From Gonapodya prolifera JEL478 (Eukaryota; Monoblepharomycota; Monoblepharidomycetes; Monoblepharidales; Gonapodyaceae): 64,000 nucleotides of DNA. A program made the position numbers and the translations under genes. The stretch's first letter is position 1, and each line of letters begins with the position of its first letter. This document shows, piece by piece, positions 14,830-26,020 of the stretch. The notes beneath the pieces were generated by a model, which was not told where the DNA came from, searched no databases, and saw only the letters and a list, made by a program, of their open reading frames with translations. The stretch covers positions 124,554 through 188,553 of the forward strand of contig KQ965802.1 of NCBI GenBank assembly GCA_001574975.1, read 5' to 3'.

Positions 14830-15615
14830 TCATGTAAAAGTGGTAAGGCTGGTCAGATCCTTGACCCCTTCGGCAAGCGCCTTCGCTCCATCATCTTGGA
14901 TTTGGTTCACTAGACGGAGAACAAAATAGTGAGCGACATGCCCATATGTACCCAGAAGATTCGTCGGGCTGATACAACTCACTTGAGAGCTGCAACTCCT
15001 GGAGCTTGGTCAGGTCCTTGAGCCCTCCAGCAAGGGCCTTTGCTGCATCGGCCCCAATTCTGTTCCCTGTTTTGTACGATGACAATTGAAATTGGATGCC
15101 CACAGACAAATGGCTGCCTTGTGCGACTTACTTGACAGATTCAAAGTACTGAGGTTTCTCAGACACTTCAGCTCTTTTGAAAGGGCCTTCGCTCCGTCAA
15201 ACCCGATTGCGTTTCCTTTATCATAAAGAGCCAATAGGGGGTGACACCGCTAACATGCATTCACAACTCACATGCCCTAACTCGAAAGTTTGCGCAATTT
15301 ACCTGACAGATTCAAAGCAGTGAGGTCACGCATGCCCTTTAGCCCTTCAGCAAAGACCTTCGCTCCGTCATCACCTATTTTGTTATCTTTGACGCACACA
15401 AAGTTCGTCCGAGATCCCAAACACACTGGGTGAAATGCCCGCCTACAAAGGACAGATGATGATACTCACTCGAGAGATTCAAATTGGTAAGGATGTTTAG
15501 TCCCGTACTGAGACCTTCTGCAAGGGCCCTTGTACCATCATCGCCGATGAAGTTGTCTGCAGGTGGTAAAATGGTTCGTGGAATGTCTAGGAGCGCAACC
15601 ACTGTGAAACTCACT
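14830..15615 (-). repeat. Array of LRR exons, one 28-residue repeat per exon
   Basis: Minus-strand exons at about 15556-15470, 15386-15303, 15215-15132, 15066-14983 and 14909-14830 each encode one ribonuclease-inhibitor-type LRR, such as NAIGFDGAKALSKELKCLRN and NRIGADAAKALAGGLKDLTK. Four are 84-87 nt long, and every intron is in phase 1, so exons can be added or lost without shifting frame. Introns between them are about 65-85 nt. The last exon ends in a stop. This is a clean case of repeat growth by exon duplication. Confidence 0.75.
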
Positions 15616-18133
15616 GGCGAGGTTAAGTGTGATCACCTTAGTATTGACGCTGAGGGTATCGACCAAACCAATAATTCCATCTAGGCGCAAACCGGACCTT
15701 GAAAGATCCAGACTATCTGCTCCATTCCATATATCTTCAATAGCTTTTCGAACCCTTGGAGCAATTCTCCCAAGAAGTGGAGTTGCGCTAAACCCCAGGT
15801 TTGACCGGTCGAACCTGGGGTGTCGGTCCAAGAGCCCTCCTGCGCGATCAAATAGCTCAAGCGCACGATGCCAATCCTTCTTGACACCGTATCCATTTTT
15901 ATAGCATTCGACAAGTCGCTGGAATGCCCCTTGATAACCGGAGCTGGTGGCGGTGCTGTACCACTCCACAGCCTTGTTCTCATCCTGTTTCGGACCCCCC
16001 AGTCCGTGGAAAAGCAAATCTCCAAGATGTGTCATTGCCCCCACATGGCCTTGCTTGACAGCACATTCATACCACCATCTTGCCCGCTCGAAATTGTTTC
16101 GGGACTCGCAGACCATGCCCATATTGAACTGGGCATCTCCGTTGCCAAGGTCTGCTGCCTTGGCCAAGAGATTTTCGGCGTTTTTAATGTTTGCGTCCAC
16201 ACCAAGTCCACCAACGTAACATTCTGCGAGGAGAACCAAAGCGAGGGTGCCAGTTTGTTCCTCTGTAGCCTTATGCAACCACTTCACAGCCTCTTCGTAG
16301 TCCCACTTGACCCCAATCTGATGCATGAGCATATAGCCGAGTCGTGTCTGTGCCTCTCCATAATCCAGCTAAGCTGCCTTTTTGTAGAACTCGACGGCAA
16401 GTTGCAGATTCTTCGTGCAAGGTCCAAGTCCGTATCTATGAAAGTCTCCAATCGCACACAATGATGCTGTGTGTCCTCGATTCGCAGCCTTTGTGTACCA
16501 GAGAGAGGCCATTACAAGATCGCGGTGATGGAGACCAAGTCTAACCTTGCACCATTCAGCAAAGTGGTATTGGGCATCGAGATGGCCAAGTTCCACCGCA
16601 CGCTTGTAGTTCCGGAGAGCCGTGGATAAATCGTTGCCTTTGCGAAGCTTTTGCGCAAGTTGAAACAATTCTTCGGCTTCCATTGGGAGGTCATTTGGGC
16701 TCGATATCAGGAGATTGTCATTGGACGGAACGGGTCGAGTAAGAGGAAGGTCACATCTAGAACATAGTGAATTGATTCATCCAGGTTCCATTAATCCATT
16801 CTGCAACTCCGAGGGAGAACTTACTGAATTTGTTCGAGAGATCCAATGATTTCGTCAAATGTTGGACGGTCATTAGGATGATGAGCCCAACAGCGCACCA
16901 TCAAGGCAGCAACCTCTGTGGGCATCGCATCTGGTACAATTGGCCTTTCCCCTCGGAGGACCCTTCCAAACACGTCCTTCAGGTCGTCATCTTCATCGTA
17001 CGCGAAGGGTTGCTCCAACATCCAGAACTGCAACACGTTGTTTTTTAAAATTTAGAAAAAAAGTGAGAAGGCATCACAGATACGACTCACCACCCATGTC
17101 ATGATTCCAACTTCGTAGACGTCCCTGCGTATGTAACAGTATCCTTTACAACGGTATCAGAGCCGGAAGGGTTCTCCAAGGGTTCATGAGGATCCAAGAA
17201 ACTAGCGAGCCGCTCCGGGGGCATGTACCAGATCGTTCTTGGTGCTGATGAAGCGTCATCACCCAAACGCTGTGCGAATCCAAAGTCTGTGATAACACCG
17301 TGACCCTGAGCTGTAATGAGAACATTTCCTGATTTCAGGTCCGTTTGCTTGACCCTGGCAATATTGTGGAGGTATGCCATGCCTCTGGCGATATCGTAGA
17401 GCTGGCCCAGTGATTTGAAAAGTCATTTTCCTTGGGTTTCTCATTTACCGTAATTACAAACGGACTCACCAAGTTTAAGCATTCATTTTGATACGCTTCG
17501 TCATCACCGTTGCACTTCTTTTTGAACTGTTCGAGGTAGTCTTGGGCGTTTTCGTTTTCCATTATCGGAGAAACAAATAATGGTTTCCCGTTGACGTCGT
17601 TACCGATTCCGTAGAGAGGAAGGACAAACAGAGAGGACAGTTGTACCATACATATGCTTCTCTGTCAATGCGAATGGAGCGTAGATTACCGATGTGCGAC
17701 TTTGCAATGTGAGGGCTACACACTGCCACGGACATACCTTCCTGGTGTATCCTCCTCCAGAACCATCGTCAGCTGCAAAAGTACGAGTCGTCCGTCCCGG
17801 CAGTTCAGTGCGAGTTTCTCGAAACAACGTTCCCTTTGGGTCGGCTACTGTGTGCCTTTCTCTACCCACGCCTGCCCTTGAAGATGACGCCGATGGTTGT
17901 CGTGTCCCGGTGGCAGATTCTGCAGGTGGCGCGACGTCGATGGTAGCGCTGTCCCCGAACGCTCGTGATTCATCCAAAATCACTTGTTTTAGAGCCACAG
18001 GAATTCCCGTCCACCATCCACGATAAACCGATCCGTACCCTCCGCTGTCAAGTTTTTCGCCACTCCACTCGATTTCTGAAAGGTCCACTTCCCAGAACTC
18101 GGGGACTCGCGCAACCTGCAGCCCTGCAGACAT
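14830..18133 (-). CDS. Protein kinase-Sel1-LRR fusion, apparently disrupted
   Basis: Likely an intracellular signalling protein. The order is: kinase domain (18133 to about 16820), five to seven Sel1 repeats (16700-15800), then six LRRs (15700-14830). Kinase motifs are GGYGSVYRG (Gly loop), VALKQV (catalytic Lys), TDLKSGNVLI and DFGF. The HRD motif reads QTD, so His and Arg are lost while the catalytic Asp is kept. Sel1 text includes ERARWWYECAVKQGHVGAM and ALCAIGDFHRYGLG-like units. The layout resembles tyrosine-kinase-like kinases fused to Sel1 repeats in early-diverging fungi. Introns are seen at about 17662-17737, 17402-17469 and after TWV near 17090. Two lesions appear: an in-frame TAG (16369-16371) where Sel1 repeats normally have Glu, and a one-base frame change near 17125 just before DVYEVGIMTW. 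Either the gene is decaying or these are assembly errors. Confidence 0.65.
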
Positions 18134-18182
18134 GGTTAGGAGTTGCTGCGGCAGGGTCCCAATCCTCTTAACAATCCATCTC

Positions 18183-19066
18183 CTAGTTAAGCCTATTCAT
18201 TCTCTGTCTAGCAATATCTGCAATATGGTGCGCTATTTGAGACAAGGTTCTGTCCGAGGTGTCCACTTCGAGTGCGTCTTCTGCTTTCCGAAGCGGCGAT
18301 ACAGCCCTCGTAGTGTCCTGGACATCTCTCTGTTTGATTCCCTCCAACACTTGGTCATAGGTCGGTAACTTTGTTGTGGTCCTCGATTCAGTATTTCCTG
18401 TTCCTCCACTCAACTTCTGCAACTCCAGCAACCGCCTCCGAGCCCTGACCTCGGCTGGGCATGTTATAAATACTTTCAGCTCAGCGTCGGGGAACACGTG
18501 CGTGCCAATATCACGTCCGTCCATCACAATTCCACCGCTACTTCTCGACCCCACATTTGTTGCAGCAGCTCTTTGCATCTTTCCAACCGCCTCCCGAACC
18601 TCAATAAGCTTGGCGACGTCGGATCCGATTCGTGAAATGGCGTTGTCCCGAATGGCGACGGAGACGTCATCATCGCCCAACCAAATTCTGTGACGTGGCA
18701 TCAAGGGAGCAGTTCCTTTCGCAGCAGAGCTTCCTGGCAACGCACGTTCGGTCTCTTGCTTCACGACCGTCGACTCGGCCACCTTTGCGATGATTCTTCT
18801 CGTGTCAGGAGCTTCCAAAGAAACGTGCCGAGCATTTCCATCCTCGAAGAGTTCCGGATGCCATCGAAGTGAGTTCAGAGCGACGCAACGGTAGAATGCT
18901 CCGGAATCGATGTAAGTGAATGAGAGAAGGGAAGCGACCTGCTGGTTGTGTCAGAACAAAGGGATACGAATCTCACAGACATTTGACCTACGAGCTTTGC
19001 AGTCGAACTCTTTCCCGCTCCAGCTGGCCCATCGATCGCTACTCGAAAGATTCTCTGAGTCGACAT
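18183..19066 (-). CDS. Bacterial-type cytidylate (CMP/dCMP) k­inase
   Basis: Phosphorylates CMP or dCMP with ATP in pyrimidine salvage. Two exons (19066-18992 and 18938-18183) give 276 residues. Motifs are those of the bacterial Cmk family: AIDGPAGAGKSSTAKLV (P-loop), FTYIDSGAFYRCVAL (acceptor site), GIVMDGRDIGTHVFPDAE, LKVFITCPAEVRARRR and the C-terminal AVSPLRKAEDALEVDTSD. Most eukaryotes use the unrelated adenylate-kinase-like UMP/CMP kinase instead, so a bacterial origin is likely. The intron splits the P-loop helix from the next strand and shows the gene is native, not contamination. No mitochondrial presequence is obvious: the protein begins MSTQRIFRVAIDG. Its start lies 68 nt from the divergent TAP42 start. 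Confidence 0.85.
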
Positions 19067-20728: not shown

Positions 20729-22402
20729 TCATTCCGAACCGAACTCCACGTTGGCCGGTATGGACTCCAGACGCACGCTTGGACCCGTGAACGTGAAGGA
20801 GCACTGGGTGTCGGAAATGTGGAGGTACGCTCTGCATTCAAGACGTCAGGGGAACGCGGGAGGACGCGAGGGCGAGCCGACCCGGAAATGGATCACTTGC
20901 AGCGATAGTATCCCGTACTCCTCCGTAGCAATATTGAGTCCCATTCCCCACCCATCTCTGTACATAACTTTCAGCTTCACCAAGTGCCTCCGTCTCAGGG
21001 TCAGCTCGTCTGGGTTGTTGGATCGTACGGTGTTCGGTGTTCGAGAAGTGAGTAAATAGTGACGCAATGGTCTGGAAAGGAGGGTACTACGTGTACCCAC
21101 ATCATGTACAATAAACGCAGAGTGGGGCACCTCCCTCCGAGCGCCAACTTCTTGCGATATCGATCCAGCTGCGCATGCCACTTTGGAAAGTGACGCTAGT
21201 TGCGCTGCAGGGAGCGCTGCGATGTCCAATGATCCGTATCCAAGCGTTACGTTCGTAGACGCTGCTGCCAAAGATCCGGGCACGGTTTCGGAGGGTTTTA
21301 ACGAGACTGACAAGTGCAAGGAGTCAGTCGCGGTAGTGGCACGACTTGGCAGCGCGGACAGGAGTGAGGTTGGCGATGGCTGGGAGGGCGCGACCAGCTT
21401 GGGTGTTTCCTGGGACGACGGGAGGAGGGGTGAGAGATGATGGATAGACGTGGGAAGCCTCCCCCCCTCCCTCCACTCAAGAATGGGATCTCGCTCTGCA
21501 TACTTACTGGAGTAGCAAGGTGCTCACCCGGAGCGTCTACCGTCCCTTTCAATGGCGCAAATGTCTGCTTGAGGCGAGTGAGTTTGTCGTTTTGGGCATC
21601 CGTCCTCTGCATTCTCCGAACCAGAAGCCCCAGTAATGCAAGCACTGTGAGTGTCCAAAACCCGCCCTCCGCTGCGACGCCGACATTTTTGGCGGATATG
21701 GATGTGGTGGAGGAAGTGTCCGTCGCCGGTGCAGTTGTGGCACCAGAACACAAAGTGCTGTTAATTGTGACAGACTTCCCATATGGAATGCCGCTTGCGC
21801 AGTTATACAATCCTGGGCTTTTGATGGCGCAGTACGCTGTCACTGAGGGAGGAAGGATTCCATCAACATTTGCCTGTGATATTGTTGTACTCGAGATCCA
21901 CGCTGGCCAGCTGCGTGAGAGAAGATAGCCGGGGAAATTGGCTCGTGAGGTGATTCCAGGAGAGGCTCAGGTATTCTATTTGCGAGGGACGGGAGAGCGA
22001 GGGTACGGGTCCGCTGAGCTGGTTGCGCGCCAGGATCAAGAATTGCAGCTGGGTGAGAGATTAAAGTGATGGGATTCCTCCCGTGAGCTCGTTGCCACTG
22101 AGGTCCAGGTATTGCAGCTGAGTGAGGACGGAGAGCGAGGGAATGTTTCCCACTAGGAAGCTGGATCCAAGGGACACAGTGGTGACACGTCCGTCAGTGC
22201 AATTGAATGCAGAGTAGGCGCAGCAAGATCCAATTGTCCATGGGATGACTCTGTTTGACTGCGCGAAAAGCTGCTCCAACGGTCCACAGTCACGGGCCTG
22301 CTTGGGAGTCAAGTCGGCGACCGTAGGGCGAGAGTAATGACGGCAGCAGGAAGAACAGAGCAGCAGCAGCGTCACGGCGAAACCGCCAGCGCGCGATTCC
22401 AT
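20729..22402 (-). pseudogene. LRR-transmembrane-SH3 receptor-like gene, copy A (broken)
   Basis: The encoded order is: signal peptide (FAVTLLLLCSSCC), Cys-rich cap with DCGPLEQLFAQSN, a few plant-type LRRs (LTQLQYLDLSGNELTGGIPS), a transmembrane helix (WTLTVLALLGLLV) and a cytoplasmic segment. An SH3-like domain follows (DELTLRRRHLVKLK, YRDGWGMGLNIATEEYG), with a short tail containing FTFTGPSVRLES. Several lesions occur: an in-frame TAA in the LRRs (22061-22063), one-base frame changes near 21870 and 21022, and a last intron whose GT does not keep frame with the conserved tail. It is the first of three tandem copies on the same strand. Confidence 0.65.
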
Positions 22403-22438
22403 ATGGGACTCACTTGGTCGTTGTCTGCTTTGACCACT

Positions 22439-24123
22439 TCAAGCGTGTTGCCGATTGTGCGAGCTCCACGACGGTATCTCCATGGACTCAAGGCGCACGC
22501 TCGGACCCGTGAACGTGAATTGGTTGTCAGTGATCTGGAGGCACGATCTGTGGTGGAGTCGGCACACATCACACGTCAGAACTCGTCAACGGAAACCAGT
22601 CCCAGCAAAGAACTTACAATGGTAGCAGCCCATACTGCTCCGTGGCAATGTTGAGCCCCATGCCCCACCCGTCCCTGAACACTACCTTCAGTTTAGCGAG
22701 ATGTCCCCGCCTTAGCGTCAGCTCGTCATGGCTTTTGGGATCGTACTGTGAAGCGCAGCACGAAGGATCGCCGATTGGTATCACAACGACCGGGCAAAGA
22801 AAGAAATCGCACCCACATGATGTACCACCAGGAATGGCGATAGATCCGGTGGAAGATCAACTCGTGCAGACGAGTTGACGACTGGCCCCACGAGCGCGAT
22901 GAACGATGAGTGCTGTACCTCGCTCAGTCCCGCGGCCGGATCTTTAGGCGTCGCTACCATTTCTTGGAGTGCCCCGGAATCTACTTCTACTCTCGGGATA
23001 TCAGCCATGTCCACAGATCGATAGGCGAGTGTTTTCACCGACGGCGGGGCCAGAGCTGGTGTAGGCAGGAGGGAAGAGGACACTGAGTCTGAAGCAATAT
23101 TCGATGGTAGCACGAATGACGAAATCGCGGTGGCAGTAGTGTCATTGCTTGGTGGTGATAGCGCAGGCAGGGAAGGCTTTTTGGGTGGGACAAGCTCGGT
23201 CGCTTCCTACAACAAATGAGTCAGAAGTTGGAACACAGACCTTGACCTGCATCGCCCTCCACACTCACTGTGTTGTCGTCGAGTTCCAAGTCCCTGCCCC
23301 TGCTTGAGGTACAACGGCACCGATGCCACTGCATCGTGTTCCTTGCAATTTCTCGACCTCGACCTGCGACCATTGTTCTTACTCTTCCGCATCCTCCACG
23401 CAAAACCTCCAGCAAAAACAACCACAGAAGTGCTTCGACGGAACCTCCTATGATGGCTCCGGTGTTGATGGATGGCGGAGGATCAGGTACAGGTGTTGCA
23501 CCGGCAGGTGCTGTTTGTGGGGAAGAAATGGTGGAAGTGCTCGGAGGGTTTGAAGGTGTTATTGTTGTACCATTTGTTGTTGTTGTGGTGGTGGTGGGTC
23601 ACAGTGTGGAGTCCACTCTCAGGGACGTTCCGTCCACGTTGCCTGTGAGGCTGTTGTTTCGCAGGTAGAGAGCCTGAAGCTGAGTGAGAGATGAGAGAGA
23701 GGGGATTGGGCCGGTAAGTTGATTGTAGGAAAGGTACAAGGTTTGCAACTACGCCAGCGTGTCAAGCGGCACCGGGCAGGTGAGATTGTAGTTGTAGAGG
23801 TTCACGCGCGTAATGCGTCCTTTGCGGCATGAAAACGCGGCAAACGAGCAGCAGAACCCGACCTTCCACGGCAAAACGACGTTGGACTGACTGAACAGCT
23901 GCTCGAACGGAGCGCAGTCCAGAGGCTCTGTTTGGGACAGCACGCCGACAGGCAGACAGAGGAGCAGCAGGAGCGCTGCTAACGCAAGCCGGCCAATTAT
24001 CGCGAGCGAGTGCAATGCAGATTCGCTGGCTACGGTCGTGACTTTGCTTGTCCGCGTCCCTTCACTCCCTCGACCCTGTGAACGTGGGGTTGGCAGCGCG
24101 TTCTGGACGTGTGAGATCTTCAA
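22439..24123 (-). pseudogene. LRR-transmembrane-SH3 receptor-like gene, copy B (broken)
   Basis: Same order as copy A: signal peptide (LALAALLLLLCLPVGVLS), cap with CAPFEQLFSQSN and a CC pair, LRRs (TLYLSYNQLTGPIPSL), a Thr/Pro-rich stalk, a transmembrane helix with GGFAWRMRKSK after it, a conserved block with SSFIALVGP, and an SH3-like domain (YDPKSHDELTLRRG, VVFRDGWGMGLNIATEQYG). The tail is ITDNQFTFTGPSVRLES. The SH3 part and its last intron (GTAAGT...CACAG, phase 2) are intact. Lesions seen are an in-frame TAG (23749-23751), an in-frame TGA (23599-23601) after the last LRR, and a frame change in the transmembrane region near 23420. Confidence 0.65.
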
Positions 24124-24405
24124 GCTGGCAATCGTGTGGATAAAGCGATCCCCGAGGCAAAATGAAGTGTGTTTTCTTGGGCTGTCCTATTGCACATCCC
24201 TCCACAGCCACAACGGGCCGCAGCACCCACCCTTTTTGACGCAGAATCGCCAGAACCGTGTCTTTCAGCTCGATGCCCGTGAGCAAATGGCGACCCGCGG
24301 TCAAAGGTCGACGGGGCAGTGACACTTTTGGCGAGACGCGTACGGAGGCATTGCATTATTCCGTGTGACATAAAAAACGACAGCGATAGTACTAATAATA
24401 GTGAT

Positions 24406-26020
24406 TCAATACCGTAATAGCAAAGTCGTGGATTGCGCCAGATCATCCGAGTCGGTCCGAGTCGAATTCCACGCTGGTTCCATCGACTCCAAACGCGCGC
24501 TTGGACCCGTGAATGCAAATTGGTTGTCGGAAATTTGGAGATACGCTCTGTGGTGGAGATGTGGGGTGAAAACAGCGGAAAACACGCCGAAAACAGATCG
24601 CTCACAGTGGCAGCAGCCCGCACTGCTCCGTGACAATGTTGAGTCCCAAGCCCCACCCGTCCTTGAATACCACTTTCAGTTTGACCCACTCTCCTCGTCG
24701 CGGCGCCAGTTCATCTTGGCAGGCTGGCTCGTACTTCGAAGTTTGACCGTGACGGTAAGCAACACAATATTTGAAAAACCAGTCATCACCACCTCACATA
24801 ATGCAAAACCTCGAACGGCGTTTGCTCTGGAGGTAAATTGACTCTGGGAGAAGTGCCGAATTCTGGCCCCACGAGAGCAATAAACGCAGCTTGTCGTACA
24901 GCACCGGCCTCCTGACATCCCTCTTGTACATCCTCAACGCAAAGAATCCCACTACTCCAAGCACTACAATTGCCGCTACCGTCCCTCCTGTTACTGCTGC
25001 AACAGCACCAGCATTTACATCAGGGGACGCGGGAGGCGCATTAGTGCCCAAGGTTGGTTGTGCAGATGCAGTTGAAGAGGTTAAAGATGGCGGTATTGAG
25101 GCAGCTATCGAGGTGGTGGTTGGGCACCGCGAGGGCGTGCCTATTTTGAGGGATGTTTTGCAGACAGGCGGGAAATTTCCTGCGCAGCTGTACAGTACCG
25201 GATTGGAGACGCTGCAAAATGAGAGTGTGGAAGAAAGAATTCCGTCCACGTTGCCAGTAGATTGTTGTTGTCGAGGTACAACTCCTTCAGATGACTAAGA
25301 GAAGAGAGGACGGGAACAGGCCCCTAGAGCTGGTTGGATGAGAGCGACAAGGTGGTCAGTTGACAGAGAGGACAGACGGGGGATTCGGCGAGTGAGCCGG
25401 TTGTAAGCTAGCGATACCGTGGTCACTTGAGTTAACGAGGAGAGGGAAGGAATTTGACCAGTGAGTTGGTTCTGGATCAGAGAGAAGTACTTCAGCTGAA
25501 TGAAAGAGGTGAGTGAGGGAATCTGACCCGTAAGCTGGTTGTTGGCGAGGTTTAATTCGGTCGGTCGAGTGCTAAGAGAAGACAACGAGGGAATCTCCCC
25601 ATTGAGGTTATTGTTTTGAAGTTACAGGTAGGTCAGCTGAGTGAGAGTGGAGAGCGAGGGAATCTGGCCGGTGAGATGGTTGTTGGCGAGGTTCAATTCC
25701 GTCAGTTGCGTGAGGGAAGCGATGGAGGGTATCTCCCTCGCAAGAATGTGGTGCGCGAGGCGGACATTTGTGACGCGCCCATCGGTGCAATTAAATAAGA
25801 GCAGCAGTGCCCCACCACCCACGGGGGGCCCGCCAGACTCAGAAGGGGTCTGAGCGTGCACCTGCTCGAATATAGCGCAATCCTGAGGATCGGCCAAGAC
25901 GGCAGGCAGGCAGAGCAGGAGCAGCACGACCGCGCAATGGCCAGCGTTCGGTCCGGTCCCATCCCGGCTGTCGCGTTGTCTGCGGCCGCGGTCCTCGCGT
26001 GCCTTACTTCGAATATGCAT
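24406..26020 (-). pseudogene. LRR-transmembrane-SH3 receptor-like gene, copy C (broken)
   Basis: Largest member of the array, with more LRRs (LTELNLANNHLTGQIPSLS, PTELNLANNQLTGQIPSL, VTTVSLAYNRL). The signal peptide is HCAVVLLLLCLPAVLA, the transmembrane helix VAAIVVLGVVGFFALRMY, the conserved block QAAFIALVGPEFGTS. The SH3-like domain is intact (YEPACQDELAPRRGEWVK, FKDGWGLGLNIVTEQCG), and the tail is LQISDNQFAFTGPSARLES. Lesions are an in-frame TAA (25622-25624), an in-frame TAG (25324-25326), and frame changes near 25350 and 24920. The start is taken at the ATG at 26020, which leads into the signal peptide. Confidence 0.65.

Follow-up and report, generated by a model that had tools for sequence, protein, structure and literature searches.

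A decayed tandem array in Gonapodya prolifera and a candidate family of fungal membrane receptors joining leucine-rich repeats to an SH3 domain

The leucine-rich repeat (LRR) receptor kinases of plants have a signal peptide, a cysteine cap next to the repeats and one membrane helix. In Toll-like receptors, too, LRRs lie outside, a single helix crosses the membrane and a small adaptor-type inner domain recruits partners. For fungi, the survey of 49 genomes by Soanes and Talbot (2010) reports LRR receptors as absent from 43 by raw count, or 45 after two corrections, and accepts five genes from four species that include a chytrid; these genes combine LRRs with one membrane helix, have no other functional domain and normally occur as a single example per genome (PMC2939053). 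Fungal membrane proteins with an SH3 domain are described in yeast, where Fus1 is a formin-binding protein and Sho1 an osmosensor (PMC3817587), and where the specificity profile of the Fus1 SH3 is one without prolines (PMC2756588). Here we analyze a stretch of 64,000 nucleotides from the zoosporic fungus Gonapodya prolifera JEL478 (contig KQ965802.1, positions 124,554 to 188,553; hereafter the window, whose own numbering is used throughout), in which three copies of one gene type, A, B and C, follow each other head-to-tail on the minus strand from an ATG at 26020 to a C-terminal tail near 20729. We propose that all three are decayed representatives of an extensive fungal family of single-pass surface receptors, and consider it probable that in this family the LRRs bind a ligand outside and an SH3 domain recruits a partner in the cytosol.

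The copies are built to a common order of modules, namely a Cys-rich N-terminal cap, LRRs, an LRR C-cap, a membrane helix, a conserved inner block, an SH3 exon and a tail. Hidden Markov models (HMMs) served to locate all of these except the LRRs, which were found by their motif, and the helices, which were found by Kyte-Doolittle hydropathy. The HMMs were seeded partly with pieces of the window, and their scores on the window copies are therefore partly circular; Pfam, the PDB and a search of the source assembly (47.6 Mb) provide checks independent of them. A preliminary description of the window, made by reading it without database searches, had posited three genes of this kind. The module HMMs match in order in all three copies, and the copies, their broad anatomy and the single membrane helix (by hydropathy) hold up, but none of the genes is intact and each carries stops, frame breaks and losses. 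The array is not a chance arrangement, since the assembly yields 82 matches to the SH3 and tail, 69 to the cap and 128 to the LRRs, which co-occur in the same order.

This co-occurrence can be put in numbers. There are 107 SH3-like places, 80 from the first query (the 82 matches minus two second pieces of window copies) and 27 from a second SH3 query; only the best candidates were scored, so that these SH3 counts are lower bounds. A cap and/or LRR match lies at most 3.5 kilobases (kb) upstream on the same strand at 42 of the 107, among them the three window copies, and both are present at 28. As controls, the same 107 places give 5 such matches downstream on the same strand, 2 upstream on the opposite strand and 5 downstream on the opposite strand; earlier controls with LRR matches alone gave 3, 2 and 0 of 80, and the reading is unaffected by which set is used. 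At 13 of the 35 SH3 places of the first count, cap and LRRs share one open frame of at least 350 amino acids. Locus L060 (contig C17), in which a further intron divides the SH3 and the block looks diverged by eye, stands outside the 42. Distinct working genes are fewer than 42, as part of the loci may represent alleles or recent duplications and some are decayed.

Relatives elsewhere in the genome retain what the window copies have lost. The models of L041 (890 amino acids) and L052 (896 amino acids) are open from the Met to the stop. Open members begin with a signal peptide, followed by the cap, the LRRs, a C-cap and the membrane helix, and continue inside with a long linker, the block, the SH3 and a short tail. 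Of the 2 and 3 candidate donors after the block, the one with the consensus GTRAGT was taken. L035, too, is open as far as its locus extends, its 5' end lying outside. Signal peptides and single helices of the family were called by hydropathy, without a dedicated predictor, and on this basis L041 and L052 have the single helix and the C-terminal SH3 of a Fus1-type membrane SH3 protein. The ectodomain of L041 is recognized by Pfam as LRR_1 (106 bits) and LRR_4 (83.2 bits), and its frame matches GSO1, FLS2 and PEPR1, all of them LRR receptor kinases of plants, at 1e-72 to 9e-67. A fold search with the L041 model returns ERL1 as the best match (3.1e-19), together with other plant receptor ectodomains. 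The model has a mean predicted local distance difference test score (pLDDT) of 59.1 and is confident in the repeats only; the inner linker is disordered, mostly below 50, and the membrane helix falls at residues 490-510 with low confidence. The idea of a surface-sensor family, first raised from the window alone, is supported; the decay of the window copies and the open relatives elsewhere in the genome had escaped that first description.

The identification of the inner domain as an SH3, also suggested at the outset, is borne out by several lines of evidence. A family profile of 18 members finds 45 PDB sequences at an expectation value (E) of at most 0.01, the best being the SH3 domains of SORBS1 (4.2e-9) and vinexin (1.3e-8); Fus1 is not among the 45 listed. 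The spliced inner modules of relatives exceed Pfam cut-offs in L041 (SH3_2, 22.9 bits, cut-off 21.8) and, for SH3_1 (cut-off 22.9), in L052 (23.4 bits) and L035 (31.0 bits), and L042, a gene on contig C4, is likewise over the cut-off (SH3_1, 25.6 bits). The five inner modules tested in Pfam match SH3 families only, and none matches TIR. The 43-residue core of the SH3 exon of copy B, modeled from 21 family rows, adopts an SH3 core with a pLDDT of 95.8; the model covers the exon core, the first and last strands of the domain being encoded in other exons. Among the 50 rows listed by Foldseek for this core, 37 are named SH3, 12 are FUT8, which contains an SH3 domain, and 1 (SRD42) was not identified; the TM-score to SH3 entries reaches 0.93. 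The preliminary description would have been refuted by an inner domain that did not match SH3 by profile or predicted structure, and this refutation did not occur.

The block that precedes the SH3 is 34 residues long, carries the pattern H-W-A-F..LVGP and occurs together with the SH3 and the tail. Pfam matches nothing in it except the SH3 that follows, and a search using the block from a single protein was weak, yielding 16 places when values of E as high as 1 were admitted. The splice sites around the SH3 exon recur: among the 27 of 29 SH3 exon matches that were readable, 24 have an AG at the start and 25 a phase-2 GT after the exon, the AG being absent in L022, L028 and window copy C and the GT in L019 and window copy C. 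We also compared amino-acid-changing with silent proportions between pairs of SH3 exons, in 11 comparisons without a significance test. The amino-acid-changing proportion lies below the silent one in all nine pairs that are in register (for example, 0.01 versus 0.33 for L025/L030).

Several observations weigh against the receptor interpretation. The SH3 segments of the window itself stay under the Pfam cut-off of 30 for SH3_9 (20.6 bits in copy B, 16.3 in copy A), and no Pfam family was matched by the readable frame of copy C. Foldseek gave no match at E of at most 0.001 for the 43-residue model, the best being 8.8e-3, which we attribute to the shortness of the query. Two of the 11 selection comparisons, both with L010, have no excess of silent change; as the L010 exon is out of register, this pair of comparisons was not counted in the reading of selection. 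At 32 of the 69 caps and 71 of the 128 LRR places no SH3 match was found within 5 kb downstream, so that not every gene of the LRR family has an SH3; L060 is one gene of this group that nevertheless carries its split SH3. Conversely, some SH3-tailed membrane genes have no LRRs, and the SH3 is thus not tied to LRR sensing. By eye, L040, L047, L050 and L053 have Cys-rich ectodomains and L048 and L055 short Ser/Pro-rich ones, so the inner module is common to different outer parts. Finally, the last residue of the peptide-binding groove is Cys in 14 of 18 sequences, His in three and Tyr in one.

Genes with the same outer design and other ends accompany those with an SH3. Among five further regions, L059 (contig C42, two genes) and L062 (contig C63) have the same succession of cap, LRRs, C-cap and helix, then a short basic tail with no SH3 match; L061 (contig C116) has the same ectodomain and a long Pro/Ser/Thr-rich inner tail in a 774-codon frame, again with no SH3 match; and in the C47 region the block and SH3 are present. 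It is possible that the Pro/Ser/Thr-rich tail of L061 is a ligand of the SH3 domains.

The architecture, its recurrence in the genome, the SH3 assignment by profile and partial model, the splice sites, the lower proportion of amino-acid-changing than of silent change in the SH3 exon and the decay of the window copies are computed results, and on them we build the following functional proposal. The LRR ectodomain would face outward and bind a ligand, which may be a peptide, a wall fragment or a microbial molecule. The SH3 inside would relay the signal by recruiting a partner, rather than through an enzyme of its own, and by analogy with yeast Fus1 and Sho1 the likeliest partners would be formins, WASP or scaffold proteins of mitogen-activated protein kinases. 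The short-tailed relatives may serve as co-receptors or decoys, as plant receptor-like proteins do, and the pseudogenes would reflect the birth-and-death turnover that is usual in recognition gene families.

The altered groove bears directly on how such an SH3 might work. In Src, from which the roles of the groove residues are taken, the last of them is Tyr. With Cys or His there in 17 of 18 family members, the classic binding of PxxP motifs may be altered or absent, and an alternative compatible with the receptor proposal is that the domain has ceased to bind Pro-rich peptides and instead mediates receptor dimerization or recognizes motifs other than proline. JIP1 SH3 entries, titled as dimerizing, are among the structure matches, and the proline-free specificity profile of the Fus1 SH3 (PMC2756588) points the same way. 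It follows equally from that profile that altered grooves can still work. Against a loss of peptide binding, the Trp of the DGW motif, the Pro and the aromatic residue before the DE motif are kept in all 18 sequences, and the splice pattern by which the tail exon was picked accepted any of nine residues, with Cys, His and Tyr among these, where the change is seen. We regard this alternative as possible.

Somewhat less plausible, in our view, is a role as an adhesion and cytoskeleton linker, in which the LRRs would grip substrate, wall or host and the SH3 would tie the contact site to actin, with no signaling triggered by a ligand. The best PDB relatives of the SH3 include SORBS1, vinexin, nebulette and LASP1, which are adaptors of adhesion and the cytoskeleton, and formin binding by Fus1 (PMC3817587) fits such a role. 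SH3 similarity is, however, no predictor of partners, and the many diverged LRR copies, the tandem arrays and the decayed members suit varied recognition better than uniform adhesion.

We think it improbable that the SH3 is a trafficking tag, directing endocytosis or polar placement of a receptor that signals via a partner. Many fungal SH3 proteins act in endocytosis, and the SH3 domains of yeast NBP2 and BZZ1 are among the PDB profile matches; the short-tailed members, however, share the ectodomain design without having the SH3.

The decay of the window copies can be followed module by module, all on the minus strand. Copy A (24406-26020) starts with the ATG at 26020 and a hydrophobic signal-peptide core at 25892-25948 (Kyte-Doolittle 2.05, 19 residues). 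Its cap matches the cap HMM in pieces that lie in two frames (25727-25888), and the plant-type LRRs at 25295-25720 have a TAA inside (25622-25624) and a TAG after them (25295-25297); on the piece at 25295-25621 Pfam finds LRR_4 (33.4 bits, cut-off 27) and LRR_1 (30.8 bits, cut-off 20.6). There follow the Cys-containing C-cap at 25112-25237 (HMM, 2.8e-12), the membrane helix at 24950-25006 (Kyte-Doolittle 2.32) and, in a frame other than that of the helix, the block with its FIALVGP motif at 24795-24890 (8.1e-14). The SH3 exon at 24605-24736 (HMM and splice scan) is open and retains acceptor AG and donor GT, and the last SH3 strand with the conserved tail (R.ES) lies at 24481-24549 (1.1e-13).

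Copy B (22470-24030) lacks an in-frame ATG before the signal peptide and carries a TAG at 23749-23751 and a TGA at 23599-23601. Its cap (23767-23925, HMM, 2.7e-24) precedes a remnant of the membrane helix at 23401-23457 (hydropathy 1.95), where the frame, on inspection by eye, appears to change; the module HMM detected no LRR C-cap in this copy. The block (22814-22915, 3.8e-15), the SH3 exon (22617-22748, HMM), which is open, keeps its AG and GT and is the one whose core was modeled, and the last SH3 strand with the tail (22481-22549, 3.7e-16) complete it. Copy C (20729-22402) has an ATG at 22402, a cap at 22139-22297 (9.7e-25), interrupted LRRs at 21863-22138, with LRR_1 at 21.5 bits (cut-off 20.6) in Pfam on 22061-22438, a C-cap at 21748-21855 (5.8e-13) and a membrane helix at 21622-21678 (Kyte-Doolittle 1.71). 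It is broken by a TAA at 22061-22063 and by a frame break with a TGA at 21863-21865, and most of the block is lost. The SH3 exon at 20900-21025 (HMM and splice scan) has no acceptor AG at its start and a donor GC, and the last SH3 strand and tail are at 20759-20833 (1.9e-12).

Some details first read from the window must accordingly be narrowed. The FIALVGP block is shared by A and B, but C retains just its edges; the cap motif C-PFEQLF-QSN belongs to a module that the cap HMM matches in all three copies, but the motif itself is altered in A; and plant-type LRRs are over the Pfam cut-off in A and C, but are down to one or two repeats in B.

All three copies look like pseudogenes. The breaks differ between them, which makes decay after duplication probable, and the duplications are old (dS of 0.86 between the SH3 exons of A and B). 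The dN between the same two exons is 0.20, and its lying below dS is a trace of past constraint. Poor base calling in the region is an unlikely cause of the breaks, as Pfam matches the neighboring TAP42-like and cytidylate kinase genes over long open stretches. An altered genetic code was considered in place of pseudogenes and ruled out, as TAA, TAG and TGA are all present, at unrelated residues, and relatives are open. It is very unlikely that the copies still work and that their breaks stem from misassembly or unrecognized introns, for although the SH3 exons of A and B retain their splice sites and a dN below dS, each copy has several types of break at positions unlike those of the others, the repeat period continues across the stops, so that an intron there would cut the repeats, and the stop types do not fit a single code change, with relatives open.

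Other features of the window and genome were recorded alongside. Adjoining the array, at 15538-18196 on the minus strand, a Pkinase piece (17099-17422, 1e-12) is followed by Sel1 repeats (15538-16776), apparently as one Sel1-kinase gene. Contigs C17 and C96 carry clusters of LRR-cap genes. Matching gene pairs on contigs C139/C152 and C40/C130, with an SH3 exon dS of 0.11 to 0.33, may be two haplotypes or recent duplicates. LRR receptors of the kinase type were sought in the same genome, and a kinase match within 5 kb downstream was found for 0 of the 69 caps, with 136 of 518 kinase candidates scored (136 of 144 matches used, the other 8 being second pieces). In viral contigs, five stretches fitted the pattern, of which one was confirmed over 20 residues (L064; SH3 HMM, 12.1 bits), and these are treated as chance. 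The assembly also has a flagellar radial-spoke protein and a chitin synthase, and hence belongs to a flagellate fungus, consistent with a chytrid.

Among the papers listed in the literature searched we found no description of an LRR-membrane-SH3 family, nor do passages of PMC6040629 and PMC10406608 bear on it, and database entries of this form without a name may exist. The survey cited above holds LRR receptors to be nearly absent from fungi (PMC2939053), whereas in a single fungal genome here about 42 loci are candidates for the LRR-membrane-SH3 type, beside more genes that join LRRs and a membrane helix to tails of other kinds. Should they prove to be receptors, a defined set of genes would open the sensing of surfaces, microbes or hosts by early fungi to testing, and LRR recognition would gain the SH3 adaptor, beside kinase and TIR, as a form of inner output. 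More tentatively, a zoosporic fungus might possess its own extensive LRR receptor system, in which the SH3 replaces the kinase of plants and the TIR of animals as a third wiring for the sensing of microbes, hosts or mates, together with short-tailed partners and with other, Cys-rich ectodomains set on the same inner module.

Compared with known systems, the family shares its plant-type LRR ectodomain with plant LRR receptor kinases such as GSO1, FLS2, PEPR1 and ERL1, and the order of signal peptide, cap and single helix is also theirs; inside, the place of their kinase is taken by an SH3, accompanied by a block and a tail proper to the family. Plant receptor-like proteins, with LRRs, a membrane helix and a short tail, find their likeness in the two genes of L059 and in L062, which have the same ectodomain as the window family and a short basic tail; the defining SH3 of that family is missing from them. 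Toll-like receptors, similar in overall plan, have a TIR in place of the SH3 and repeats of another type. Fus1 is a single-pass protein encoded by a single gene, without an LRR ectodomain, and Sho1 has four membrane helices and no LRRs. What these two have in common with the family is that they are fungal membrane proteins with an SH3, one that binds formins in the case of Fus1 (PMC3817587). The genes of Soanes and Talbot resemble the family in joining LRRs to one membrane helix and differ from it in that they reportedly have no further functional domain and normally occur once per genome (PMC2939053).

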